Assembly (NCBI GenBank): GCA_938024995.1 | Contig: CALJDU010000006.1 | Coordinates: 147,052 to 211,051, forward strand | Direction of reading: 5' to 3' | DNA from: an uncultured bacterium | Lineage (GTDB): Bacteria; Myxococcota_A; Polyangia; Polyangiales; Houyiibacteriaceae | Length of the DNA: 64,000 bases | Part shown: one piece after another, positions 219 through 55,766 of the stretch | How positions within the stretch are numbered: the first letter of the stretch is position 1 | How the letters are laid out: each line of letters starts with the position of its first letter | Position numbers and translations under genes: made by a program | Notes under the pieces: model-generated | Databases searched by the model: none | Told to the model about the DNA's origin: nothing | The model's input: only the letters and a program-made list of their open reading frames with translations

Positions 219-2930
<2,712 letters not shown>

Positions 2931-25002: not shown

Positions 25003-26078
25003 AGGCGCGTGATGAAGACGCGGCTCTCGAGCTGTTGGCGCGCGCGCATGCCGAGGTCGAAGAGGTAGCGGGCGTCGCCGATGGTCACGAGCTGGACGCT
25101 GAGGCCGCGCGTCCACTCCATGTGCGAGTGCTCGCGGAGCGGGTGGATCTCGCCGGTGGGCGCGGACACGACGGTGCCGCGGGTCTGATCTTGGAAGGCG
25201 ACGTGGCGCGCGCTGAGGTCGACCCGCGCGCCGACCGTATGGGCGGGCTCGCTGGTGCGCTGTCCGGCGTCGATCCGGCGCGGCTCATCCGCGAGCCCGT
25301 TGCGCTTGAGGAAACCAAAGCGGACCTCCTCGGAGGTCGTCCACGCGACCCCTACGCCGTTGCCACGAACGACCGCGTCGACCTCTTCGGTCACGCCGCG
25401 GGCCAGCTCGAGAGGCGCGGTCTCGCGGCTATCGGTCAGGAACTGCGCGTCGACTCCGTCGCGGCTGGAGCGCACGAGCATGACTCCGTCGAGGTAACGC
25501 TCAACCGCGACGTCGGTGGTGATGCGATCGGGGAGGGCGTGCGGGAAGCGCGTCACCGACGAATCGCCGAGCCGCACCGCCACGACGCCACCGTTGTCCA
25601 GCGCGAAGGCGCAGTGGAGCCGGTCTGCGGAATCCGTCGCGAGAGACGCGGCGATCGGGTTCTGGTCCGACAAGCTCGGGAGCGCGGTCGCGGCGCCGGT
25701 GGCGGGATCGATGCTCGACCACCAGAGGCCCACGCCTTCTTGAGGCAGGTACGCGATGACGATTCGATCACCACGGGTCGTGATCGCGAGCGGCCGACCC
25801 GCTCCGGAGATGACGCCGATGTTGCGAAAGGAGCCAGGCGTCGCGGGGTCGCCCGTGAAGAGCATGAGCTCACCTTCGGTCGAAGCGAGGGCGAGCGCGA
25901 CCCGATCACCGAAGGGTGTCGCGAGCATCGCGCGGACCGGCGGGAGCTCGCAGTTCGCGCCGCAGTGCTCTTCTTCGACCGCTGGGAAGAGCGGCGTCGC
26001 TTGCATCCCTTGCGTTCCCTTGGCGCAGCCCGCGAGGGTCATCGCAACGAGCGCGAGGGTGATCGCCGCCTGCTTCAA
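24999..26078 (-). CDS. Lipoprotein of unknown function (repeated beta-strand-like segments)
   Basis: MKQAAITLALVAMTLAGCAKG lipobox; full-length ORF; 4-nt overlap with upstream gene. Confidence 0.75.
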   Translation of the reverse strand: MKQAAITLALVAMTLAGCAKGTQGMQATPLFPAVEEEHCGANCELPPVRAMLATPFGDRVALALASTEGELMLFTGDPATPGSFRNIGVISGAGRPLAITTRGDRIVIAYLPQEGVGLWWSSIDPATGAATALPSLSDQNPIAASLATDSADRLHCAFALDNGGVVAVRLGDSSVTRFPHALPDRITTDVAVERYLDGVMLVRSSRDGVDAQFLTDSRETAPLELARGVTEEVDAVVRGNGVGVAWTTSEEVRFGFLKRNGLADEPRRIDAGQRTSEPAHTVGARVDLSARHVAFQDQTRGTVVSAPTGEIHPLREHSHMEWTRGLSVQLVTIGDARYLFDLGMRARQQLESRVFITRL

Positions 26079-27721
26079 TTTCCAAACCTCAGGTCAAAAG
26101 CGTAGGCGCGAACGCCGTCGTGCTCCACAAGGAGCGGGCGTCGCGCTAGGCGCGGAGAGCCCGGGAGCGGCTCCGCGATGAGCGGGTATGAGTCCGGCAC
26201 CGCGCCTTTGGCGAGACGGACGATGACCTCGAAGGTGTTGCGGAGCGTGTCGTCGCTCGCGCCGAGCAAGGGCGAGCCCCACACCGACTCCACCTCGGTC
26301 TCGATTTGGTTCTGCGCGACCTGCAGGTTCAGCCGCGTTCCGTTGGGGACGAGGGCGACGCGACCGCGCATCGTGACCGTGCCTGAGGCGAGACGCGCGA
26401 AGGCGCCCATGACGTTGGCGCCGATGTCGATCCGGACGCGAGTCGCCTCGACACGCATGGAGCCATCTTCACCGATCGCGACCGACGGGACCTCAAGCGG
26501 TCGCACCGAGATGACCGGGTGCGCGACGGAGAGCGCGGAGAGGCGCGAGAGGGTCGGCAGCAGCATTGAGATGTCGAGCTCTTCCAAGATCGAGGCGTCC
26601 GCGTCGTAGCAACCGACGCCCGCTTGGTGCGCCGCCCACAGCATCCGCGCGATCGAAGCCTCCCCGATCACGAGCCGCGCGTGGGCATCCGTCTCGCCCA
26701 AGATCTCGACCGGCAACGGCCGCGTGCGCGGCGCGTTCTTGAGCGGCGCGCAGCGATGCCGAAACGAGGGTCGCGCGCTCAAGCGAAGCGCGAGGTCGAG
26801 CCCGCTGGCGCTCTGCGCAACGTCATCGGCCAGAGAAGCGGCCAGCGAGACACGTCGCTGTTCGTCTGGGGAAGCGATCTCGATGGAGGCGGCGAGCGGC
26901 GCGGGATCACAACGTCCCGAGTTCTCCCCGCGTGATCGGCGACAGAGACCGTCTTCGGCGCAGCTTGAGCCGGGATCGCAGCCCATGGAGCACGGTCGGC
27001 AGCTGAGGGCCGCGGTGCGCTCCGTGACCGCGCTCGTGAGCGCTGCGTTGGCGCGCTCCGCGAGCATTTCCGTGACCCCCGCGACGTTGGCGACCGAGCA
27101 CCAGAGCGTTCCGCAACGGTTCCGGCCGGCGACGGTTACGTCTTCTGCAGACACGCCCGCGCCCATCTCCGCGCTCGCGACCTCAAGCACCGTCAGACCG
27201 GTTCGGGCGTCGATGCGAAACCCAAACCCGACCTGCGCGTCGATCGTTCGGGGCTGGGCCATCGCGGTGTCGACGAGCACGCTGCACTCCGGGTTGCTGG
27301 TGAACGCGCACGGCCAGGTCTGTTCGTAGCGGACCGGGATCGCGTCGGTCACCGCGCGCACGGCGACGTCGACGTTGAGCCCGGGTCGTTCGCTCAGACC
27401 GACCTCGAGCCGCTCGGGATCCAGCCGAACCGCGCAACCACCGTCCGGGCACACCGTGATGTCGTCTTGTTGGACCCGCGGGATGTCGACGACGAGATCG
27501 TTGGGCGAGAGCGAGCCGATCGTGGACGTGATCGCGTTGAGCCCGCTTGGCGTGATCCGCAACCACGCGGAGCGCTGGTCGACGCGGTAGGTCGCCTCCG
27601 CCGCGGTGCTCGCCGCGGGGCGCCAGTCGTCTTGTTGATCGCAGCCAAAGACGAAGAGAGTGACCGCTGCAGCGATCACGGCGGAGCGCAGAGAAGCGCT
27701 TGAGGGTGGAGAGCGTCGCAC
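26075..27721 (-). CDS. Lipoprotein of unknown function
   Basis: GTG start at 27721 gives VRRSPPSSASLRSAVIAAAVTLFVFGCDQQ lipobox; Cys-rich CRPCSMGCDPGSSCAEDGLCRR segment; coupled to next lipoprotein gene. Confidence 0.72.
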   Translation of the reverse strand: MRRSPPSSASLRSAVIAAAVTLFVFGCDQQDDWRPAASTAAEATYRVDQRSAWLRITPSGLNAITSTIGSLSPNDLVVDIPRVQQDDITVCPDGGCAVRLDPERLEVGLSERPGLNVDVAVRAVTDAIPVRYEQTWPCAFTSNPECSVLVDTAMAQPRTIDAQVGFGFRIDARTGLTVLEVASAEMGAGVSAEDVTVAGRNRCGTLWCSVANVAGVTEMLAERANAALTSAVTERTAALSCRPCSMGCDPGSSCAEDGLCRRSRGENSGRCDPAPLAASIEIASPDEQRRVSLAASLADDVAQSASGLDLALRLSARPSFRHRCAPLKNAPRTRPLPVEILGETDAHARLVIGEASIARMLWAAHQAGVGCYDADASILEELDISMLLPTLSRLSALSVAHPVISVRPLEVPSVAIGEDGSMRVEATRVRIDIGANVMGAFARLASGTVTMRGRVALVPNGTRLNLQVAQNQIETEVESVWGSPLLGASDDTLRNTFEVIVRLAKGAVPDSYPLIAEPLPGSPRLARRPLLVEHDGVRAYAFDLRFGN

Positions 27722-27756
27722 GCGGCTCGATTGATAACAGAAACCCAGGAATGAAG

Positions 27757-27788
27757 AGAGCGCGCTCGCCAAATGGCGGGCGCGCTCT
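27757..27788. terminator. 14-bp stem hairpin between the FHA gene and the lipoprotein gene (terminator/attenuator candidate)
   Basis: AGAGCGCGCTCGCC-aaat-GGCGGGCGCGCTCT, one non-Watson-Crick (G-U type) position; no strong T tract. Confidence 0.5.
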
Positions 27789-27812: not shown

Positions 27813-29930
27813 CTAGAAGGTCGGCTTGCCGGTCATCTTGAAGGCTGACCCGTCGTAGCTGCCGAGGACGTTGGTCGTGCCAGGACCGGTGACCTCGATG
27901 ATCGACGTCACGCGACGACCCTCACCGCGTCGCTCCACCTGCACCACAACCTGAACCGCTGCGGTGATGAGGGAGGTCGTGGCGGCCTGGTTGATAACGC
28001 CGAGCGACGTCAGGTTCGCGAGCGCGGTGAGCGCGTCGCCGCGGGCGTGGATCCCGACGATGCAACCGTCGCGCGAGGTGAGCGTGCCGAGCACCGCGGC
28101 GGTGTCAGCGCCCGCGACGCCGTCGACGACGAGACGATCCGCGTGCATCTGACTCGCCCGCGAGACGAGCTCACCAAGCGAGATGCCGTTCGCGACGAAA
28201 CGCGCGGCGGCGGGGACGTCGAGCGTGCTCTGGGACTCGACGACGACCGCGCCTTGTCCCGAGACGCGCGCTAGGGCGCCGACCACGCTGCTCGTCCCGG
28301 CGCCAGACGCACCCATGACGACGACGTTCTTGCGCGCGTTGACCGCGCGGGTGAGCAGGTCGATGACGGTGCTGTCAGTGATGGCGCTGGCCGCGAGGTC
28401 TTCGCCGCCGGCGCGTCGCACCTGCACAATGGGTCCACCCGGAGCGACGTCGGAGCCGTAGACGGTGACCGCGTGACCGGAGGGAAGCGTGTTTTCGTAG
28501 ATGCCGCTCGAGGAAAGCGAGTGACCCGCGAGGTTGGCGATGCGCTTCGCGATCGTAGAGGCCGCAAAGCTTGAGGAGACCGAGGCCCCCGACTCTTTCA
28601 ACCCGTCACCGCGATCCACGTAGACCATGCCACCGCCGTGCACGACGGCCTCGTTGATGCCGCCATCCGTGAGGATCGCGTCAAAGGGACCCAGACCGAT
28701 CGCCTCGGCGAGGGCCGCGGCAGCGAGGGCGGCGTCGCCATCGACCGAGGAGAGCGCCGCGTTGATCGCGGCCTTCGCGTCCGACTCACGAGAGGCGTCA
28801 ACGACGTCCATGTGAAGGTCGAAGTTCGCGACGTTGCCCATCAGCTCCGCGAGCTTGCTAACCGACGCGACCGGGAGCGGAGCGGCCGCGACCGGGGTGT
28901 GGGCGATCGGCGCTGCGGCAGCCGCGGCAGCCGCGGGAGCGGCAGGCGCCACGGTCGGGCCGCCGGGAGGCGTCGCGGGCTCGGGCGTCTTGTCGGGGTC
29001 GGTTACCGGAGCTGCGGATGGACCGCCAAGCGAAGGCGCGCCCAGCGAGGGACCGCCCAGCGAGGGACCACCCAGTGAGGGACCACCCAGCGATGGACCG
29101 CCGAGGGACGGTGCCGGTGCCGCACCGGACGGCGTAGGCGCGGGAGCGGTGGCGTCGGCGGGACCACCCAGCGGCGGAGGTCCGCTCAACGCCGGAGGCG
29201 GAGCGAAGGGAGGTGGAGGCGAGCTTGGCGCGGGCGCGGGGGCTGCCGCGGGAGGACCTCCAAGAGACGGCGGGCCACCAAGCGAGGGCGGGCCACCAGG
29301 GGAGGGAGGGCCACCAAGCGAGGGAGGGCCACCGAGCGAGGGAGGGCCACCAAGCGAGGGAGGGCCACCAAGCGCGGGAGCCGGAGAGGGCGGTCCACCA
29401 AGAGCGGGCGGTCCACCGAGGGCGGGGGGTCCACCAAGAGCGGGAGGTCCACCTGGGGCGGCGGCCGGACCCGGCGTTGGCATTGGAACTGGGGGCACCG
29501 CCGCGGAGGCGCGCATGGTTCGCTTTGGCGCGTTGACGGCGTGATTGGTGGGACCGCCGAGGCCGTCCGCGGGAGGCGGACCACCGGGAAGAGGAGGGGG
29601 CGCGGACACGGGACCGGGCGGCGGAGCGAACTGCTCCGAGGCCTGATCCTCAACGGCGAGGATGAAGTCCCCGATGTAGATCTTGTCGCCTGGCTTTACG
29701 ACCAGCGGCGAGGTGATCTTACGTCCGTTGACGTAGGTACCGTTGGTGCTCTTCAGATCGACGACAATGAAACGTGAGTCCTTGAGGACAATGCGGGAGT
29801 GCCGCTTACTGACGTTTCCCTTGGGCAGGATGATGTCGTTCCCTTGGACGCGACCGATGGTGACCTCGGTCTTGTCGAACTCCATCTTCTTCTGAGTTCC
29901 ACCTTTTTCGGTGATGACGACTCCGAACAT
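27813..29930 (-). CDS. N-terminal FHA domain, Gly/Pro repeat linker, C-terminal CpaF/TadA-like (secretion ATPase superfamily) domain
   Basis: FHA: VTIGRVQGNDIILPKGNVSKRHSRIVLKDSRFIVVDLKSTNGTYVNGRKI; C-terminal ILTDGGINEAVVHGGGMVYVDRGDGL... VVVMGASGAGTSSVVGALARV... GIHARGDALTALANLTSL. Confidence 0.82.
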   Translation of the reverse strand: MFGVVITEKGGTQKKMEFDKTEVTIGRVQGNDIILPKGNVSKRHSRIVLKDSRFIVVDLKSTNGTYVNGRKITSPLVVKPGDKIYIGDFILAVEDQASEQFAPPPGPVSAPPPLPGGPPPADGLGGPTNHAVNAPKRTMRASAAVPPVPMPTPGPAAAPGGPPALGGPPALGGPPALGGPPSPAPALGGPPSLGGPPSLGGPPSLGGPPSPGGPPSLGGPPSLGGPPAAAPAPAPSSPPPPFAPPPALSGPPPLGGPADATAPAPTPSGAAPAPSLGGPSLGGPSLGGPSLGGPSLGAPSLGGPSAAPVTDPDKTPEPATPPGGPTVAPAAPAAAAAAAAPIAHTPVAAAPLPVASVSKLAELMGNVANFDLHMDVVDASRESDAKAAINAALSSVDGDAALAAAALAEAIGLGPFDAILTDGGINEAVVHGGGMVYVDRGDGLKESGASVSSSFAASTIAKRIANLAGHSLSSSGIYENTLPSGHAVTVYGSDVAPGGPIVQVRRAGGEDLAASAITDSTVIDLLTRAVNARKNVVVMGASGAGTSSVVGALARVSGQGAVVVESQSTLDVPAAARFVANGISLGELVSRASQMHADRLVVDGVAGADTAAVLGTLTSRDGCIVGIHARGDALTALANLTSLGVINQAATTSLITAAVQVVVQVERRGEGRRVTSIIEVTGPGTTNVLGSYDGSAFKMTGKPTF
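29018..29460 (-). repeat. Low-complexity in-frame repeats encoding (GGP(P)SLGGP(P)...)n linker
   Basis: Tandem ccaccaagcgagggagggcc-type units; protein PPALGGPPALGGPPALGGPPSP...SLGGPPSLGGPPSLGG and SLGGPSLGGPSLGGPSLGGP. Confidence 0.9.
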
Positions 29931-30113: not shown

Positions 30114-32936
30114 TCAGTCGATGAGTCGCAGGCCAGGCGGCAGCGAGTCGCCGAAGATCCGTCGTTCATCCGCTTCGTCGAGGTGCGTCACCTCGCGGAC
30201 CATCGCGACCCAGTTCTCGGGTGCATCGGCGGCGGTCAATCGTTGCGCGATCTTCTTTCGGATACCTTCGTCTAGATCCCGCTCGCGATCTCCGCTGGCG
30301 CGCGCGAGCAACGTCGCGGCGAGCGCGGCCTCACGAACCTCGGTCCAGTCGAAGCGGATCGCTTGCTCAAGCCAGGAGAGCGCGATCCGCGCGGGCACGA
30401 CGTTGTGCGCGCTTCCGTAGAACGGCACCCGGGCACCGAGGCGACCCACCGCCCACCAACCTTGCGGGTTGTCTTCGTGATCGATCAAGCGCGTGACGAG
30501 CCAGCCGCCGACCTTCGCTTTGCGCTCCGCGGAGATGCGCTCCAGCGAACCCGCCAAGCGGATCATGTCGTCGACGCCGAGTTTCTTCGGGCCCTTGGGT
30601 TTTTGTCGCGGACGTCGCGAAGGCGGCTCGAGGTAAAACGCGATCTCGCTTAGGAGGCGCTCCTGCGTCTCGGCGGTGAGGCCGCCCGCGATGCGCCGCC
30701 ACATGATCCAGAACTCGCTCCAGTTCTGCGCCTCGGCCGGGAACTGCACGCTCTGTTTGAGGAGCGCGGCGAGCTGACCGCTGCGCCACTCGTCGAGCGG
30801 GTAACCAAAGCCAGGCCGCAACGAGTAGCCGATCAAGTGGTACCAAATGCGCTCGTGATCCTTGCTCCGTCGCCGACGCTTTTGACCGGCGAAGAGCGCG
30901 GACCAGATCTCGCGCAGGAGCGGTGGGTCCCATCCTTCTCGCGCGCCCAAGATCTTCTCGAGGTCGGGGCGGAGGCGCTTGATGTCGCGCGGGCGAACCT
31001 CTTGCTCGCCTTTGCTCTTTCCGTAGACCAACCGGATCCGATCCGTCGCCTCCGCGAAGCGGGGATGGAGCTGGGTGACGCGTTGCGCGGAGAGGCTCGC
31101 TTGCCCTTTGCCCCGCAACTGAAACTCAAGCTTGAACCGCTTGGCGGCGTCCTCCGCGTGGACACAGCTCATCTCCAACGTGCCGACCTCGGTCAGCCCG
31201 CTCACGAGGGTCACGGGGATCTCGCGTCCCTCGTCCTCTTCGCCCAGGACCGCGGCGATCGGAGGTAGATCGGTGTAGCGATCGGCGGTGATCTCGACGA
31301 GCTCGCCGGGCCGCACGTGGCGCACCTCGGACGGAGTGGACGCGAGGTGAAAGCGAACCGGCCGCCCCAGCTTGAGCGAGAACGTGCGGTTCGGGAGGGT
31401 GATCTCTTCGCCTTCTTCGGCGCCGCGAGGGAGCACGCAGACGGCATCGCGACCCGTCGCGTCTTTGCTCTTGCGGTCGACCATCAAGAAGTACGCGCGC
31501 GCGGAGCCTCCGCCGATCTTCAGGCCGCGTCCACGTCGCGCGAGACCGTAGGCCACCGCGCCACGAGCGACCGCGCGATCGGGATCTTCGCCGCGGAGAT
31601 CCGCGACCTCCGCGCCGCGCCAGCGAGAGAGCGCGCCGCGCATGCGTTCCCGGAGCAGGGCGCCTCGGAAGACGCCGCCGTTGAAGAGCACCGCGTCCGG
31701 GACCGCGAGCGATGAAGGGCTGGGCGCGCGATCGCCGAGCGCCTCTCGAGCGACGTCATCGTTGCGGGCGAAGAAGTCGGTGACGTGACGCGTGATCCCC
31801 GCGTCAGCGACGTACGGCAAGCCGAACTCGACGATCCCGCCGCGACGCTTCTCCGGGCGCGCGTCGGCGTCGACCTCCGGGAAGAATCCATCGAGGACCA
31901 ACCGGTGAACCTCGTCGCGCGTGATCTCGCTCTTCATGGTGCCGCCCACGAGTGCCCGTCCAGAGCCGAGCACCGTGACGACCGCGCGCTCGGGAGCGTC
32001 TTCGCTGAGGAGGCGCTCCTTGGCGATGCGGCACTGCTGAATGAGCTGGTGGAAACGCGCGGAGTTGAGCTTCTTCCCCTTCGCGATCTTCGGCTCGACG
32101 ATCTTCGCGAGCGCGAGATCCATGTTGTCGCCGCCGAGCATCAAGTGTTCGCCGACCGCGACGCGGGTGAGGCGCGGACCGTTCTCGCGGAGCTCAACCT
32201 GGATCAACGTGAGATCGGTTGTGCCGCCGCCCACGTCGACGACGCTGACGAGCCGAATGTCTTTGAGCGCGGTCTCCAGGTCATCGCGGCGTTGGTCGAG
32301 CCAGGCGTAGAACGCCGCTTGGGGCTCCTCGACGAAGCGAACCTTAGGCAGGCCAGCGCTCTTGGCGGCGCGCAAAGTGAGCGCGCGCGCGCCTTCGTCG
32401 AAGGACGCGGGAACGGTGACGACGACCTCTTGGGTCTCGAGCGGGTTCCGCGGGAAGCGCGCGTCCCAAGCGCGCTTGAGGTGACGCAGGTACGACGCCG
32501 ACGCTTCGACGGGGGAGACCTTTTGCACCTCGTCCGCGGCGCCCCACGGCAAGATGGCGGCGGTGCGATCCACCGCGCCGTGTGAGAGCCAGCTCTTCGC
32601 GCTCGTGACGATGCGGCCGGGCACCTTGCTTCCCCGACGGAGCGCGAGCTCGCCGAGGACCGCGTCTTCGTCGCTGTGCCAGGGCAACTTGCGATCGTGC
32701 TCCTCGAGCTCTCCGTCGCGCGGGTGATAGCGAACAGAAGGGAGCGAGAGGCGCGCAGCGATCTCGCCCGGCGCGATCAGCTGCTCGATCTCAAACACCT
32801 CCACCGAGACGTCTTCCGCTGCGGTATCCGCGTACGCGACGACCGTGTTGGTGGTTCCGAGATCAATCCCGACGATGTAACGAGCGTGAGCAGGCACGAG
32901 CGAGAAAGCTCTAGTGCGTGAGCGCGCGCTCTTCAA
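30114..32936 (-). CDS. Hsp70/DnaK-family protein with long divergent C-terminal region
   Basis: YIVGIDLGTTNTVVAYAD; VVVTVPASFDEGARALTLRAAKSAGL; VSVVDVGGGTTDLTL; about 400 aa beyond the nucleotide-binding domain with no standard DnaK lid visible. Confidence 0.88.
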   Translation of the reverse strand: MKSARSRTRAFSLVPAHARYIVGIDLGTTNTVVAYADTAAEDVSVEVFEIEQLIAPGEIAARLSLPSVRYHPRDGELEEHDRKLPWHSDEDAVLGELALRRGSKVPGRIVTSAKSWLSHGAVDRTAAILPWGAADEVQKVSPVEASASYLRHLKRAWDARFPRNPLETQEVVVTVPASFDEGARALTLRAAKSAGLPKVRFVEEPQAAFYAWLDQRRDDLETALKDIRLVSVVDVGGGTTDLTLIQVELRENGPRLTRVAVGEHLMLGGDNMDLALAKIVEPKIAKGKKLNSARFHQLIQQCRIAKERLLSEDAPERAVVTVLGSGRALVGGTMKSEITRDEVHRLVLDGFFPEVDADARPEKRRGGIVEFGLPYVADAGITRHVTDFFARNDDVAREALGDRAPSPSSLAVPDAVLFNGGVFRGALLRERMRGALSRWRGAEVADLRGEDPDRAVARGAVAYGLARRGRGLKIGGGSARAYFLMVDRKSKDATGRDAVCVLPRGAEEGEEITLPNRTFSLKLGRPVRFHLASTPSEVRHVRPGELVEITADRYTDLPPIAAVLGEEDEGREIPVTLVSGLTEVGTLEMSCVHAEDAAKRFKLEFQLRGKGQASLSAQRVTQLHPRFAEATDRIRLVYGKSKGEQEVRPRDIKRLRPDLEKILGAREGWDPPLLREIWSALFAGQKRRRRSKDHERIWYHLIGYSLRPGFGYPLDEWRSGQLAALLKQSVQFPAEAQNWSEFWIMWRRIAGGLTAETQERLLSEIAFYLEPPSRRPRQKPKGPKKLGVDDMIRLAGSLERISAERKAKVGGWLVTRLIDHEDNPQGWWAVGRLGARVPFYGSAHNVVPARIALSWLEQAIRFDWTEVREAALAATLLARASGDRERDLDEGIRKKIAQRLTAADAPENWVAMVREVTHLDEADERRIFGDSLPPGLRLID

Positions 32937-45266: not shown

Positions 45267-48200
45267 CTAGATCGACACTCCGCGCGCTCTCAGCCGCTCG
45301 ACCGCGATCTCGACGTCGCGTTGCTTGGGCTCGCGGAAGGTCATGGGAGGCGGCTGCGCCACACCGTCCGTCTTTTTCATTTCGCGCACCTTCACGCCGC
45401 GGTTCTTCAGCACGGAGACGATCCAGTTGAGCCGCCCGTGTTCATCGCTCGCGCGTAACGCATCTTCGTTGCCGGTGATCGCTTCCCGAACGTGTTCCTC
45501 GATCCGCTGTCGATCGAGCTCGCTCTCCGCGGCGCCGCAGATCATCGGGACCAAGATCGGGGCGTCGCGCAGCAAGAGATACATCCCGCCGGTCGCGCGG
45601 GCGATCGCGCGGTAGACCGCTTCGCCTCCGTTGTAACTGCGCAGGTTCGGGAGGCAGCCGATCGCGTAGACCGCGATGCCCATCTCGCGGAGGTTCTCGC
45701 TCTGGGTAAACCAGTGGTCGCCGGTCGGGGGACCGCTCGGGAAACCGTCGCCGCCGTCGTTGGTGACGCCGTGGGGAGGCGCGTCACCGAACCACACCAC
45801 CGCGCGGGCGGCGTTCGGTCGCCACGAGAGTCGCGCGACGTCGTGAAGCGCGGCCGTGACCGCTTCGGGACCATCGCCGCCTCCGGACGCCACCAACTTC
45901 AGCACGTCGCCGCGCACGCTCGCGAAGTCGTCCGTCAGCGCGGTGACCTGGGTGATGTACGTGTTCTCTTGTGGCGGGTGGTCACGATAGCTCACCAGCC
46001 CCAGCCGCAGGCTCTCGCAAAGCGCGGACTCTTGCAGCGCGACGATCAGCTGCTGCAGGCGCTGACGAACCTCGCTGATCTGCGAACCCATCGAACCGGT
46101 CGCGTCGACCATAAACACCAGGTCAAGCTCGCCGCGCTTCTTTGTCTTGAGCCACGCGAGCTCGCGCTCCGGATACGGTTCGCTCCCCGGAAGCGTCACC
46201 GGGACCTGCGGAGGCGGAGTCTCGGCGCGCGCGCGATCAGCCGGTTCCATGGGCATCGCGTCCATCGTCCCAGGCGGGCGCGGCGGCATCACGGGAGGCG
46301 GAGTCGGCGCCGAAGCGGGACGACGCTTTGTGCGCGAAGGCGTCCTCGCGGCGGGAGCTGAGCGCTCCATCATGACGCCCATCTCCGGACTTGGCGCGGA
46401 CGGCACCGGCGCAGCCATCGCGGGCGGAGGAGGTGCGGCCATCGCTGGCGGCATCGGCGCCGGCATCGCAGGAGGCGCGCCGCCCCGCGTTCCTCTCGAG
46501 GAGGCTCGGGAGGGCGACATTGGTCGCGGTCGACTCCGCGTGAGAGGAGCCGGGGGAGGAAGGTCGCCGCGCGTTCGATCACCCACGGTCTCGCGCGGCA
46601 CGCAGGCGAAGGTCTCCTGCGACAGGGTGAAGCGGAGCTTGTAGTCACCTGCTCCGATCACGTCGCCGTCTTTCAGCGCGCGCTTTCGAACGGCGCGGCC
46701 CTCCACGTACGTCGCGTTGGTGGACTCGGAGTCGTAGAGCACATAGCCGTCGCCCTCGGCGCGGATCTCGAAATGGAATCGGCTGACGTTGTTGGCGGCG
46801 AGGACAAGATCGCTGCCGTCCCGACGCCCGATCGTTACCCGTGGCTTGCTGATCGTGAAGCGCGCCCCGACGCCCTCTCCCTTGATCACCTCCAGCACAC
46901 CCTTTTTGAACTCGGTCGGCTCGACGGCCACTTCGGAGTCCTCCGCGACCAGCGACGTAAAGGGGCTCACGATGTTGTGGGCGAGGGCGAGCGCGGTCAG
47001 CTCCGGGGCGGCTTCACCGAGCGCTTCGTGGCTCTTGTCGGTGAACGAGTCGATCTTCTTCCGCGCCCAGGCTCGCGTGAGGCCGTGGGTGCGCGCGACG
47101 GTGGGCAACGTGACCGGCACCTCTTGCCGGAACGACTTCCCGCCAGGCGTCACGCCGGTGATCACGAGCGTGCTCTCGCCGCTGCCTTCGTAGCGCCCGA
47201 GCACCCTGATGGGTTGGCCGCCGTGGAGATCGGGGATGCGCCGCGGGAGGTACTCCGTGACCTCCGCCTCCCAGTACATCTGGAGGTCCATCAGAACCGG
47301 TCCGCCATCGCGGACGCGCCGCGCGAAGCGCTTCAAGGTCTCGCGGTCGCCGGGCTGGACCACCTCCGCGATGCCCCCGGTCGTCGTCGCGATTCGCGTC
47401 AGCAGCCGTCGGTTCGCGCCCGCGCCCACGCCGAGCAGGTAGACGGGGGTCGTTACGCGCTCTTTGATCCGCGACAGAACGCGGCCCGTGTTTCCGATCG
47501 CGGCGTCGGTGATCAAGACGATCGCTTGGGTCCGTCCGTCTCGCTTGGCGACGTCGGCCATCGCCTCGAGCGCGCGCGTGAGCTCGGTTCCGCCGCGCGG
47601 CTGACGCTCGAGGAGAAACGCGTCCACGCGCTCGATCAACTCCGGCGAGACCGCCTCGTAGCGCTCCCCGTGTTCACCGTAAAACTCACGTTCGTGATCG
47701 AACGTCACGAGGCGAACCGTGTCGCCTTGCGGGAGCGCGGTCAGGAGCTCTCGCGTCGCCTCGCGGGCGAGCGCGTGTCCTTCGCTGCGCATCGACGCCG
47801 ATCGGTCGACCAAGATCAGGACGTCGCGCGGCAGGGTCGGGCGCGTGACCGGATCGGTCCCCGGCGTGAGCAAGGCGTGGCAGTAGCGACACGGAACGAC
47901 GGTCCCCATGCCGGGGATCTCTTTCGCGTGGTCGAGGCTCTCGATCGGCCCGCCGCAGTTCCCGCAACAGAGCGGCTGCATCCCTGGCTTCTTGATCGGA
48001 TCGAGGTTGGATTTGGGCGGCGTGATCGTCAGCAGAAACGTGCCGCGGGGGTCGTCTTCGGCGCGCTCGAACTGAACGACCGGCGCGACGCCTGCGCGGG
48101 CCGCTTGGAAGGTGAGATGGAAGTCGCGGTTCGGGACTCCGTCTTCCGCGCGAAGCGTGACCCGCTGGCGCTCCATGTTCCGGTCGTGGGTCACGGCGTG

Positions 48201-48818
48201 AGAACGACAGCGAACCTCTTCTGCGTGACGCGGGAGCGTCACCTCGATGCTGACGTCCGCGGCGCGGTTGGGGTTGCGGCGCGGCGGAGGGAGCGCGGCG
48301 GAGGCGGCCATGACCGCGTCGATGGACGCGTCAGGGGGCGCGTCGAGGTAGCGGGTGGGCGCGACCATCGGAAAGTCGAAGCGGTACTCGCCATCGTCGA
48401 AAGGCAAGAGCTGTTGGTACGTCAGCTCGACCTCGATCTCCGCGCCAGGCGCGAGGTTCGCGACGGAGAGGGTGAAGAGGTCCGGGCTGTCTTCCTCGAG
48501 CAGGGTCGCGGCGCGTCCTTCACTGCGCGCCCGCTCGTAGATCTCGCGCGCTTCTGCTTTGCGCTTGATGACCGCGCGGACGATGCGGTCGCCGATCCGG
48601 AAGAGCATCTGATGGACGCTCGCGCCTTGCGGCAACGGGAAGCTGTAGACCGCTTCGATCGCTTGGTCGCGATCGTTGAGGAACCGCTGCTCGACCGAGA
48701 CGGTCGCGACGGGGCCCAAGAGCGAGGCCTCGACGTGCGTCTCCTGGAGCGGGAGCGCCTGGCCGTCACTCGCGGTGAGCGTGCCCTCCGTGGGTGCGTT
48801 TTGACGATCCGCGATCAT
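45267..48818 (-). CDS. VIT domain / Cys4 zinc-ribbon-like insert / VWA / FHA / Pro-rich linker / second VWA
   Basis: VIT: LPLQETHVEASLLGPVATVSVEQRFLN; CGNCGG...CRYCHAL; VWA1 DVLILVDRSASM; FHA VTIGRRDGSDLVLAANNVSRFHFEI...STNATYVEG; VWA2 DLVFMVDATGSMGSQI. Confidence 0.88.
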   Translation of the reverse strand: MIADRQNAPTEGTLTASDGQALPLQETHVEASLLGPVATVSVEQRFLNDRDQAIEAVYSFPLPQGASVHQMLFRIGDRIVRAVIKRKAEAREIYERARSEGRAATLLEEDSPDLFTLSVANLAPGAEIEVELTYQQLLPFDDGEYRFDFPMVAPTRYLDAPPDASIDAVMAASAALPPPRRNPNRAADVSIEVTLPRHAEEVRCRSHAVTHDRNMERQRVTLRAEDGVPNRDFHLTFQAARAGVAPVVQFERAEDDPRGTFLLTITPPKSNLDPIKKPGMQPLCCGNCGGPIESLDHAKEIPGMGTVVPCRYCHALLTPGTDPVTRPTLPRDVLILVDRSASMRSEGHALAREATRELLTALPQGDTVRLVTFDHEREFYGEHGERYEAVSPELIERVDAFLLERQPRGGTELTRALEAMADVAKRDGRTQAIVLITDAAIGNTGRVLSRIKERVTTPVYLLGVGAGANRRLLTRIATTTGGIAEVVQPGDRETLKRFARRVRDGGPVLMDLQMYWEAEVTEYLPRRIPDLHGGQPIRVLGRYEGSGESTLVITGVTPGGKSFRQEVPVTLPTVARTHGLTRAWARKKIDSFTDKSHEALGEAAPELTALALAHNIVSPFTSLVAEDSEVAVEPTEFKKGVLEVIKGEGVGARFTISKPRVTIGRRDGSDLVLAANNVSRFHFEIRAEGDGYVLYDSESTNATYVEGRAVRKRALKDGDVIGAGDYKLRFTLSQETFACVPRETVGDRTRGDLPPPAPLTRSRPRPMSPSRASSRGTRGGAPPAMPAPMPPAMAAPPPPAMAAPVPSAPSPEMGVMMERSAPAARTPSRTKRRPASAPTPPPVMPPRPPGTMDAMPMEPADRARAETPPPQVPVTLPGSEPYPERELAWLKTKKRGELDLVFMVDATGSMGSQISEVRQRLQQLIVALQESALCESLRLGLVSYRDHPPQENTYITQVTALTDDFASVRGDVLKLVASGGGDGPEAVTAALHDVARLSWRPNAARAVVWFGDAPPHGVTNDGGDGFPSGPPTGDHWFTQSENLREMGIAVYAIGCLPNLRSYNGGEAVYRAIARATGGMYLLLRDAPILVPMICGAAESELDRQRIEEHVREAITGNEDALRASDEHGRLNWIVSVLKNRGVKVREMKKTDGVAQPPPMTFREPKQRDVEIAVERLRARGVSI

Positions 48819-54038: not shown

Positions 54039-55766
54039 CTAGAGCGCGCGGAGCCGGCGGGTGAGCCGGACCATGGCGCGTCGCTTCTTCCAGCCGCGCG
54101 TCCGCGGATACTGCGCTTGGACGTACGGGAGCGCAGCTCTTCCCCAGCCCGCGCGGATGGCGCCGAACCCCTCAAGGAACTCGTCGTCGTCCGCGCCCTG
54201 AATGACCCGAACCAGATCCGAAAGCGCGCGCGGATCGGAAGCGGTGGCCCTCGCGTCCTGGTGCACGGCGGAGCGGTAACGCTCGAGCGCGGACTTGTAC
54301 CAACCGAGGTGCATGAAGAGCCGCGCGAGCACGAGGTGCGTGCGAACGTCGCTTCGGTGCTCGCGCGCGTAGCGAAGGAGCGGCCGGACGTCGGCGCGCT
54401 GCTCGAAGGTGTCGTTGCGCGCGATCCGGTCCATCGTGGTCTCGAGCAGATCCGGGAGCGTCTCGCGAAGCGGTCCTTGTGAACGGTTGGCGATCGCGAC
54501 GTAGTTCACGGAAGCGGGCGCGGAGGGAATAAAGCGACCCTCGATAACCTCGCCTTCAATGCGTCCATCCGCGGCGACTGGCGCGGGCGCTTCTTCTGGC
54601 GGCGCTTCTTCGGCTTCTTCGGCTTCTTCGGCCTCAGCGGCTTCTTCGGGAGCGACTTCTTCGGACGGCGGTTCTTCAGGCGTGGCTTCGGCAGCTTCTT
54701 CCTCGGCCTCTTCCGGCGGGAGTGTTGGCACCGATGCTTCTTCAGGCGTGTTCGTCTCGACGTTCGCGACGTTGTCGACCGTCTCGTTGGTCACGTCCGC
54801 GGCGGGCTCGCTCCTTGGCCACAGGAACCAAGCGAGACCGACGACCGCGGCGATCGCGAGCATCAAGGGCACGCGCGAGGTGTCCGGCGCGGGCGCTTTG
54901 TCTGCCGCGGGCGCTTTGTCTGCCGCCACGGGAGGCGCGGACGAGGGCTTGTCGACGGATTCGGTTGCTTCGGCTTCGCGAAGCTTGATCTCGCGGAACG
55001 CGAACTGCGCTTCCTCGATGTCGTCGAAGCGGCGCCGCTCCGGGTTGTCGATCGCCTTTTTGATCCACTCGCCGAGACCGGTGTAGGCGTCGAAGTGATA
55101 GCTCCGAATCTTGCCGTGGGGCTCACGGCCAGTCGCGGCGTAACGCAGGACCTGCGCGATGGAGACCTGGTCGCTCGCGAAGTCAGCGCGCTGCTGCTCG
55201 ACCTCCGGCGCGCGGAACCGGGTGGTGTACTTGCCTGGATCTTGCGGATGACCTTCGCGTTGTTGAACCAGGAGCTGAATGCCGAGGCCCACCACGAAGA
55301 TCCCATCCGCGCCGGCGATGATGTTCCGAGGTGTTAGGTCTCCGTGCCAAACGCCAGCCGAGTGCGCAGAGGCGGTGACGGCGATCAGTTCGTAGCCGAG
55401 GTTGAGCACGTCCTCCGGCTCAACGGCTCCCGCTTCGATCGTCGTGAAGAGCGGGTCTGCGTCGATCCACTTGTAGGCGATGTACGGGACGTCATGCAGG
55501 ACCCCGTAGTCAACGACCGGCACCAGACCTTCTTCACGGATCTTCGCGATGTGTCCGAGCACCTCAAGAACCAGGTCCGCCTCTTCGTCGATCGAGCAGT
55601 CCACCGGAACCGTGGCCAGGACGACCTTCGTTCCTTCGTCTAGACCATCGACGCCAGCGGCGATCGCTTCGTACATCAACGCGGTGCCGCCCCATGAAGA
55701 GGGCTCGCCCACCTCATAGCGACCCTCGAAGAGTTCGCTTAGCGCCTTTTGGGTGTCGCTCGACAC
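54039..55766 (-). CDS. Pseudokinase-like membrane protein: kinase-fold domain, TM, Glu/Ala-rich linker, TPR-like C-terminus
   Basis: HGDLTPRNIIAGADGIFVVGLGI in place of HRD...DFG; no VAIK Lys (VVLATV); TM LMLAIAAVVGLAWFLWP; acidic linker. Confidence 0.75.
   Translation of the reverse strand: MSSDTQKALSELFEGRYEVGEPSSWGGTALMYEAIAAGVDGLDEGTKVVLATVPVDCSIDEEADLVLEVLGHIAKIREEGLVPVVDYGVLHDVPYIAYKWIDADPLFTTIEAGAVEPEDVLNLGYELIAVTASAHSAGVWHGDLTPRNIIAGADGIFVVGLGIQLLVQQREGHPQDPGKYTTRFRAPEVEQQRADFASDQVSIAQVLRYAATGREPHGKIRSYHFDAYTGLGEWIKKAIDNPERRRFDDIEEAQFAFREIKLREAEATESVDKPSSAPPVAADKAPAADKAPAPDTSRVPLMLAIAAVVGLAWFLWPRSEPAADVTNETVDNVANVETNTPEEASVPTLPPEEAEEEAAEATPEEPPSEEVAPEEAAEAEEAEEAEEAPPEEAPAPVAADGRIEGEVIEGRFIPSAPASVNYVAIANRSQGPLRETLPDLLETTMDRIARNDTFEQRADVRPLLRYAREHRSDVRTHLVLARLFMHLGWYKSALERYRSAVHQDARATASDPRALSDLVRVIQGADDDEFLEGFGAIRAGWGRAALPYVQAQYPRTRGWKKRRAMVRLTRRLRAL

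Follow-up and report, generated by a model that had tools for sequence, protein, structure and literature searches.

An orphan FHA-fused CpaF paralogue of Myxococcota is probably a pseudo-ATPase serving as a phospho-dependent scaffold

The closest known systems to the protein described here are the CpaF/TadA ATPases of class III, defined by the domain order FHA-IDR-3HB-NTD-CAD (PMC12019362), and KilF, which belongs to the Kil system of Myxococcus xanthus (PMC8460266). They share with it the succession of an FHA domain, a disordered linker, NTD1, NTD2 and a RecA-like domain, and their motor part is homologous throughout to that of our protein.

The gene is located on the minus strand at positions 27813..29930 of the 64,000-nucleotide stretch of DNA that was analysed (the window). 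Its open reading frame starts with ATG, encodes 705 aa and is a real gene for which orthologues were recovered. Residues 1-95 (29646..29930, minus strand) matched the FHA family PF00498 at 3e-18, and TIGR03354 (T6SS Fha) matched the same region. A Pro/Gly/Ala-rich repetitive linker follows (residues 98-352; 28875..29639, minus strand), recognisable by its composition and dN/dS; its 255 residues contain 15 LGGP-type units and consist of 32% P, 19% A and 18% G. It leads into a CpaF-like NTD1/NTD2 region (residues 356-511; 28398..28865, minus strand), in which the hinge glycines G412/G414 are kept, and a degenerate RecA-like motor domain (residues 512-705; 27816..28397, minus strand) defined by AF2 modelling and Foldseek. 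TIGR03819 matched the CpaF-like domain at 1.4e-27, at only 96.8 bits against a curated cut-off of 373, and no match to Pfam T2SSE (PF00437) was reported for the protein. The initial annotation, an FHA domain fused through a long repetitive linker to a degenerate CpaF/TadA-like domain, is borne out by these results. All elements of the class III architecture (N-terminal FHA, disordered linker, three-helix region, NTD and CAD) were found, the three-helix region with modest model confidence. An antisense open reading frame of 236 aa (28834-29544, plus strand) mirrors the repetitive linker and seems to be a side effect of the GC-rich repeat, not a gene.

Nine catalytic residues (K287, T288, E312, R347, E357, R359, H382, R217 and R223 in Caulobacter CpaF numbering) were scored, their roles being set from work on Caulobacter CpaF (PMC11300603, PMC12019362). 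Eight of them are replaced in the window protein (R217T, R223A, K287T, T288S, E312T, R347Q, E357G and R359A), and H382 is the sole survivor. Thus the Walker B Glu E357, the Asp-box Glu E312 and the Arg fingers R217, R223 and R347 have become G, T, T, A and Q, respectively. Just as had been read from the sequence, the Walker A stretch is GASGAGTSS (28287..28313, minus strand), with Thr for Lys, and the Walker B stretch is RLVVDGVAGADT (28101..28136, minus strand), without its Glu. The pattern GxxxxGK[ST] is absent from the entire protein, and a search for an intact Walker A Lys at another register found none. The losses extend to the parts of CpaF that engage its partners. The Central Loop E331-G334, the region contacting the platform proteins CpaG/CpaH, is deleted in the window protein and in 86-89 of the 92 proteins of the clade to which it belongs (the orphan clade, see below), with E331 absent in 86 of 92; the platform-contacting D208 of CpaF is also lost. 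With the catalytic residues and the Central Loop gone, the protein is without its engine and without its pilus-engaging part.

The fold itself has been retained. Fold-core positions are kept, with the hinge glycine G149 present in 89 of the 92 proteins, and a profile search matched the window protein to CpaF chains at 9e-63. A two-domain AF2 model gave a low global TM of about 0.5, which we attribute to the NTD and CTD being oriented differently; because of this low value the CAD was remodelled alone (pLDDT 82, pTM 0.84). The best solved match in Foldseek was CpaF (8rjf, E 1.1e-23), with a query-TM of 0.78 for the motor domain alone. Comparison with CpaF, proposed when the domain was first noticed, therefore places the NTD2 and the RecA-like CTD in a fold homologous to that of CpaF.

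Every orthologue recovered from the family and order of the window's genome (L024-L052) was without both the Lys of Walker A and the GE pair of Walker B, which excludes an artefact of sequencing or of a single strain. An initial DNA-pattern search using a single protein as query had given no matches; phylum-wide sampling was done with the family FHA as query against 237 Myxococcota genomes. One strong copy, nearly always single, was found in 123 of them (about half), and the Walker A Lys was lost in 44 of the 53 loci taken from this search. Relatives without Lys kept a median of two of the nine catalytic residues, as against nine of nine in canonical CpaF copies. Walker A was most degenerate in six relatives whose P-loop is shortened by one or more residues (L025, L026, L049, L085, L088 and L091).

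In a tree of motor domains the window protein fell inside the orphan clade (n=92, SH-aLRT 100; support 100/99 in a careful tree of 76 rows), apart from the tad-encoded KilF-type motors and from five intact FHA-CpaFs. Lys is lost in 80 proteins of the clade and kept in 12, one of which has eight of the nine residues. It is mostly kept by one group (f26, including a Lujinxingiaceae genome) and by a Kofleriaceae pair; with two exceptions the remaining proteins are without it. Arg takes its place in about 20 relatives, some of which retain most of the P-loop. A single clade of all proteins without Lys was rejected by the AU test (p-AU 1.1e-5). This rules out a single common loss, and Lys was therefore probably lost repeatedly and independently. 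Parsimony gives five changes, which is a rough figure for the losses, since the inner backbone of the clade is weakly resolved and some of its long branches come together. Because 12 of the 92 proteins keep Lys, some lineages may still bind nucleotide, and binding without hydrolysis is possible even for the window protein.

Between close relatives the dN/dS of the degenerate motor domain was 0.07-0.28, near the FHA value in most pairs, while the linker was usually looser and exceeded the folded domains. No frameshifted or truncated alleles occurred among complete orthologues. Purifying selection, which acts on the protein as a whole, and intact open reading frames together exclude a pseudogene. 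Catalytic residues lost in orthologues and a domain that is under purifying selection are the marks of a pseudoenzyme. From the family-wide losses, this selection and the missing docking loop, a pseudo-ATPase, as the initial annotation had suggested, is strongly supported as the predicted state of the window protein, and motor loss in its family is well supported.

The FHA domain has had a different fate. Its phosphothreonine-pocket residues (G26, R27, S41, H44, N63 and G64, forming the GR, SxxH and NG signatures) are intact, and all six are invariant across 92/92 relatives, so that the domain is predicted to be a phosphothreonine reader. In genomes G044, G008 and G005 the orphan proteins were 93-98% identical in the FHA domain and 40-51% in the motor part, whereas the KilF-type motors of the same genomes were 76-88% identical in the motor part and about 56-86% in their FHA domain, a range that drops to 29% when a fourth genome is added. 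Conservation is thus inverted: orphans preserve the FHA domain and canonical motors preserve the motor. The orphan FHA subtype is only 24-32% identical to the KilF-type FHAs of relatives.

The gene is not encoded in a tad locus; its neighbours are a gene for an Hsp70-like protein with a C-terminal DUF3731 (DNA-K related) and uncharacterised open reading frames. The Hsp70-like gene (30114..32936, minus strand) lies directly upstream and is co-directional; among 21 loci at the order level, five have it no more than two genes upstream of the orthologue. FBPase was encoded downstream of the orthologue in 10 of the 21. The co-directional open reading frame downstream in the window (26075..27772, minus strand; gap of about 40 bp) has no Pfam match and is unconserved at orthologous loci. 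Linkage in the window's own order is thus only partial, immediate downstream genes being unconserved, and a conserved operon was rejected there.

Other signalling proteins were noted in the window. A 1183-aa protein (45267-48818, minus strand) has VIT, VWA, FHA and a second VWA-like domain and is thus a second FHA protein in the window. Two Hanks kinases had been claimed. One of them is clear and carries PEGA repeats (219-2930, plus strand). The other, of 575 aa (54039-55766, minus strand), fell below the Pfam protein-kinase cut-off in the scan of window proteins (27.7 against 31.7 bits) and is possibly a divergent or pseudo-kinase.

Outside the window's class the orphan has a regular companion. 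A gene for a membrane-anchored FHA-FHA-TM protein was located 0-220 bp downstream in 29 of 33 loci from 15 families, with a gap mostly under 100 bp; it was recorded as the conserved downstream neighbour for L053-L098 and L153-L205. The layout of this protein is constant (FHA 1-94, FHA about 130-205, TM about 230). In the window's order the two genes are not adjacent, and the 2xFHA homologue of the window's genome is on another contig (C33:9738, 579 aa, about 30% identical); it is a candidate orthologue of the partner. Of the five intact FHA-CpaF genes, four are likewise followed by the FHA-FHA-TM gene. In the five genomes concerned (L054, L079, L083, L087 and G241) the FHA subtype of the orphans is joined to an intact motor, and a separate orphan is absent; at L054, the one such locus with annotated neighbours, the intact FHA-CpaF adjoins a secretin. 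The complementary distribution of intact FHA-motors and orphans suggests that an ancestral FHA-motor was divided into two copies, one for the motor and one for the FHA domain.

The explanation that we favour, with a probability of roughly 0.6, is that the window protein is an orphan FHA-fused (class III) CpaF/KilF paralogue that has become a pseudo-ATPase and a phospho-dependent scaffold; in other words, it is probably a signalling scaffold made from a retired secretion motor. A phosphothreonine-reading scaffold that has repurposed a secretion-ATPase fold had already been proposed from the sequence, and it is the best-supported reading in view of the invariant pocket, FHA conservation far above that of the motor, persistence in genomes without Tad and pairing with the membrane 2xFHA protein outside the window's class. 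Apo CpaF is a hexamer without nucleotide, and CpaF mutants have likewise been reported to be hexameric (PMC11300603). For this reason the CpaF-like part might still self-assemble in the absence of nucleotide, giving a static oligomeric platform from which several FHA domains would extend on long and flexible tethers. The tethered domains could capture proteins phosphorylated on Thr by Hanks-type kinases. Across most of the phylum the orphan would probably work with the adjacently encoded, membrane-anchored 2xFHA protein, which is unlinked in the window's genome. Together they would form a phospho-signalling hub at the membrane, with no remaining part in driving a pilus. The scaffold mechanism, the ligands and the oligomeric state of the window protein are what we infer. 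Historically, a bifunctional FHA-motor may have been duplicated; the tad copy would have retained the motor while its FHA domain drifted, and the orphan copy would have retained the FHA domain, its motor being lost independently on several occasions. Somewhat more tentatively, the whole may be viewed as a phylum-wide, Tad-independent phospho-signalling module of Myxococcota, a ring of FHA-bearing pseudo-CpaF with a membrane 2xFHA protein, which would have arisen from the split of an FHA-motor gene with repeated loss of ATPase function.

It might be thought that the protein still serves Tad, either as a dead subunit in hetero-hexamers with canonical CpaF/KilF or as their competitor, and couples the motor to phospho-signalling. 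It is homologous to CpaF, after all, and canonical CpaF is present in 27/50 carrier genomes. The statement that the window holds no other tad gene stood for the parts scanned, although about 145 kb away on the same contig there is a canonical tad cluster, whose two CpaF genes (C6:24.1, 28.6 kb) are intact. INDEPENDENCE from Tad is nevertheless indicated by 23/50 carrier genomes without canonical CpaF, in which the best CpaF matches are the orphan itself or PilB-like proteins; an obligate Tad partner is ruled out for these, and most of them are also without the Tad secretin N-domain. Moreover, the only tad loci in which the gene was seen are those whose canonical motor it encodes, and the Central Loop and D208, through which CpaF contacts its platform, are lost. 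A regulatory subunit of Tad is therefore improbable.

An unusual active or nucleotide-switching ATPase relying on replacement residues, for example Arg for Lys, is about equally unlikely. The relatives with Arg at this position, and those with Lys, one of them almost complete in its catalytic set, lend it some plausibility, but neither residue is found at this position in the window protein, which has also lost the two Glu and the three Arg fingers, and the P-loop is shortened in the six relatives named above. Still less probable is that the CpaF part is merely a residual domain under decay and the FHA domain alone the functional unit. The motor domain does evolve much faster, with 30-44% identity against about 84-92% for the FHA domain among many order-level relatives. 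However, low dN/dS values, complete orthologues free of frameshifts and truncations, and a fold core conserved in about 90 diverse proteins speak against decay.

Hanks-kinase signalling is strongly expanded in myxobacteria, and the proposed phospho-dependent scaffold opens a testable link between this signalling and an uncharacterised conserved FHA hub. The graded intermediates (intact, Lys-only and fully dead) form a natural series from motor to scaffold. In the literature searched, which left out most subscription papers, no FHA pseudo-CpaF or pseudo-ATPase of this kind was described, and no earlier report was found of any family of secretion or pilus motor ATPases that is catalytically dead and FHA-bearing throughout a bacterial phylum. 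Such genes may readily be mistaken for Tad/T2SS ATPases in annotation.

Among known systems, EssC of the type VII secretion system resembles the window protein in combining FHA-like domains with ATPase domains, some of them reported to be degenerate. It differs in being an FtsK/HerA-type ATPase in a membrane secretion channel; to our knowledge its FHA-like domains are not canonical phosphothreonine readers and its motor part is not homologous to that of the window protein. The Fha/TagH proteins of T6SS have, like the window protein, an FHA domain matching TIGR03354; they read Thr phosphorylation by Hanks kinases and control an envelope machine, but are without a CpaF-like domain, and no T6SS genes were found next to the window gene. 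Class III CpaF/KilF remain closest. Compared with them, the window protein has lost the catalytic residues and the Central Loop, is sited away from tad genes, carries another and far more conserved FHA subtype, and belongs to a family that persists in genomes without canonical CpaF. As it departs from them in the defining catalytic, docking and genomic traits, it does not belong under the heading of Tad ATPases.
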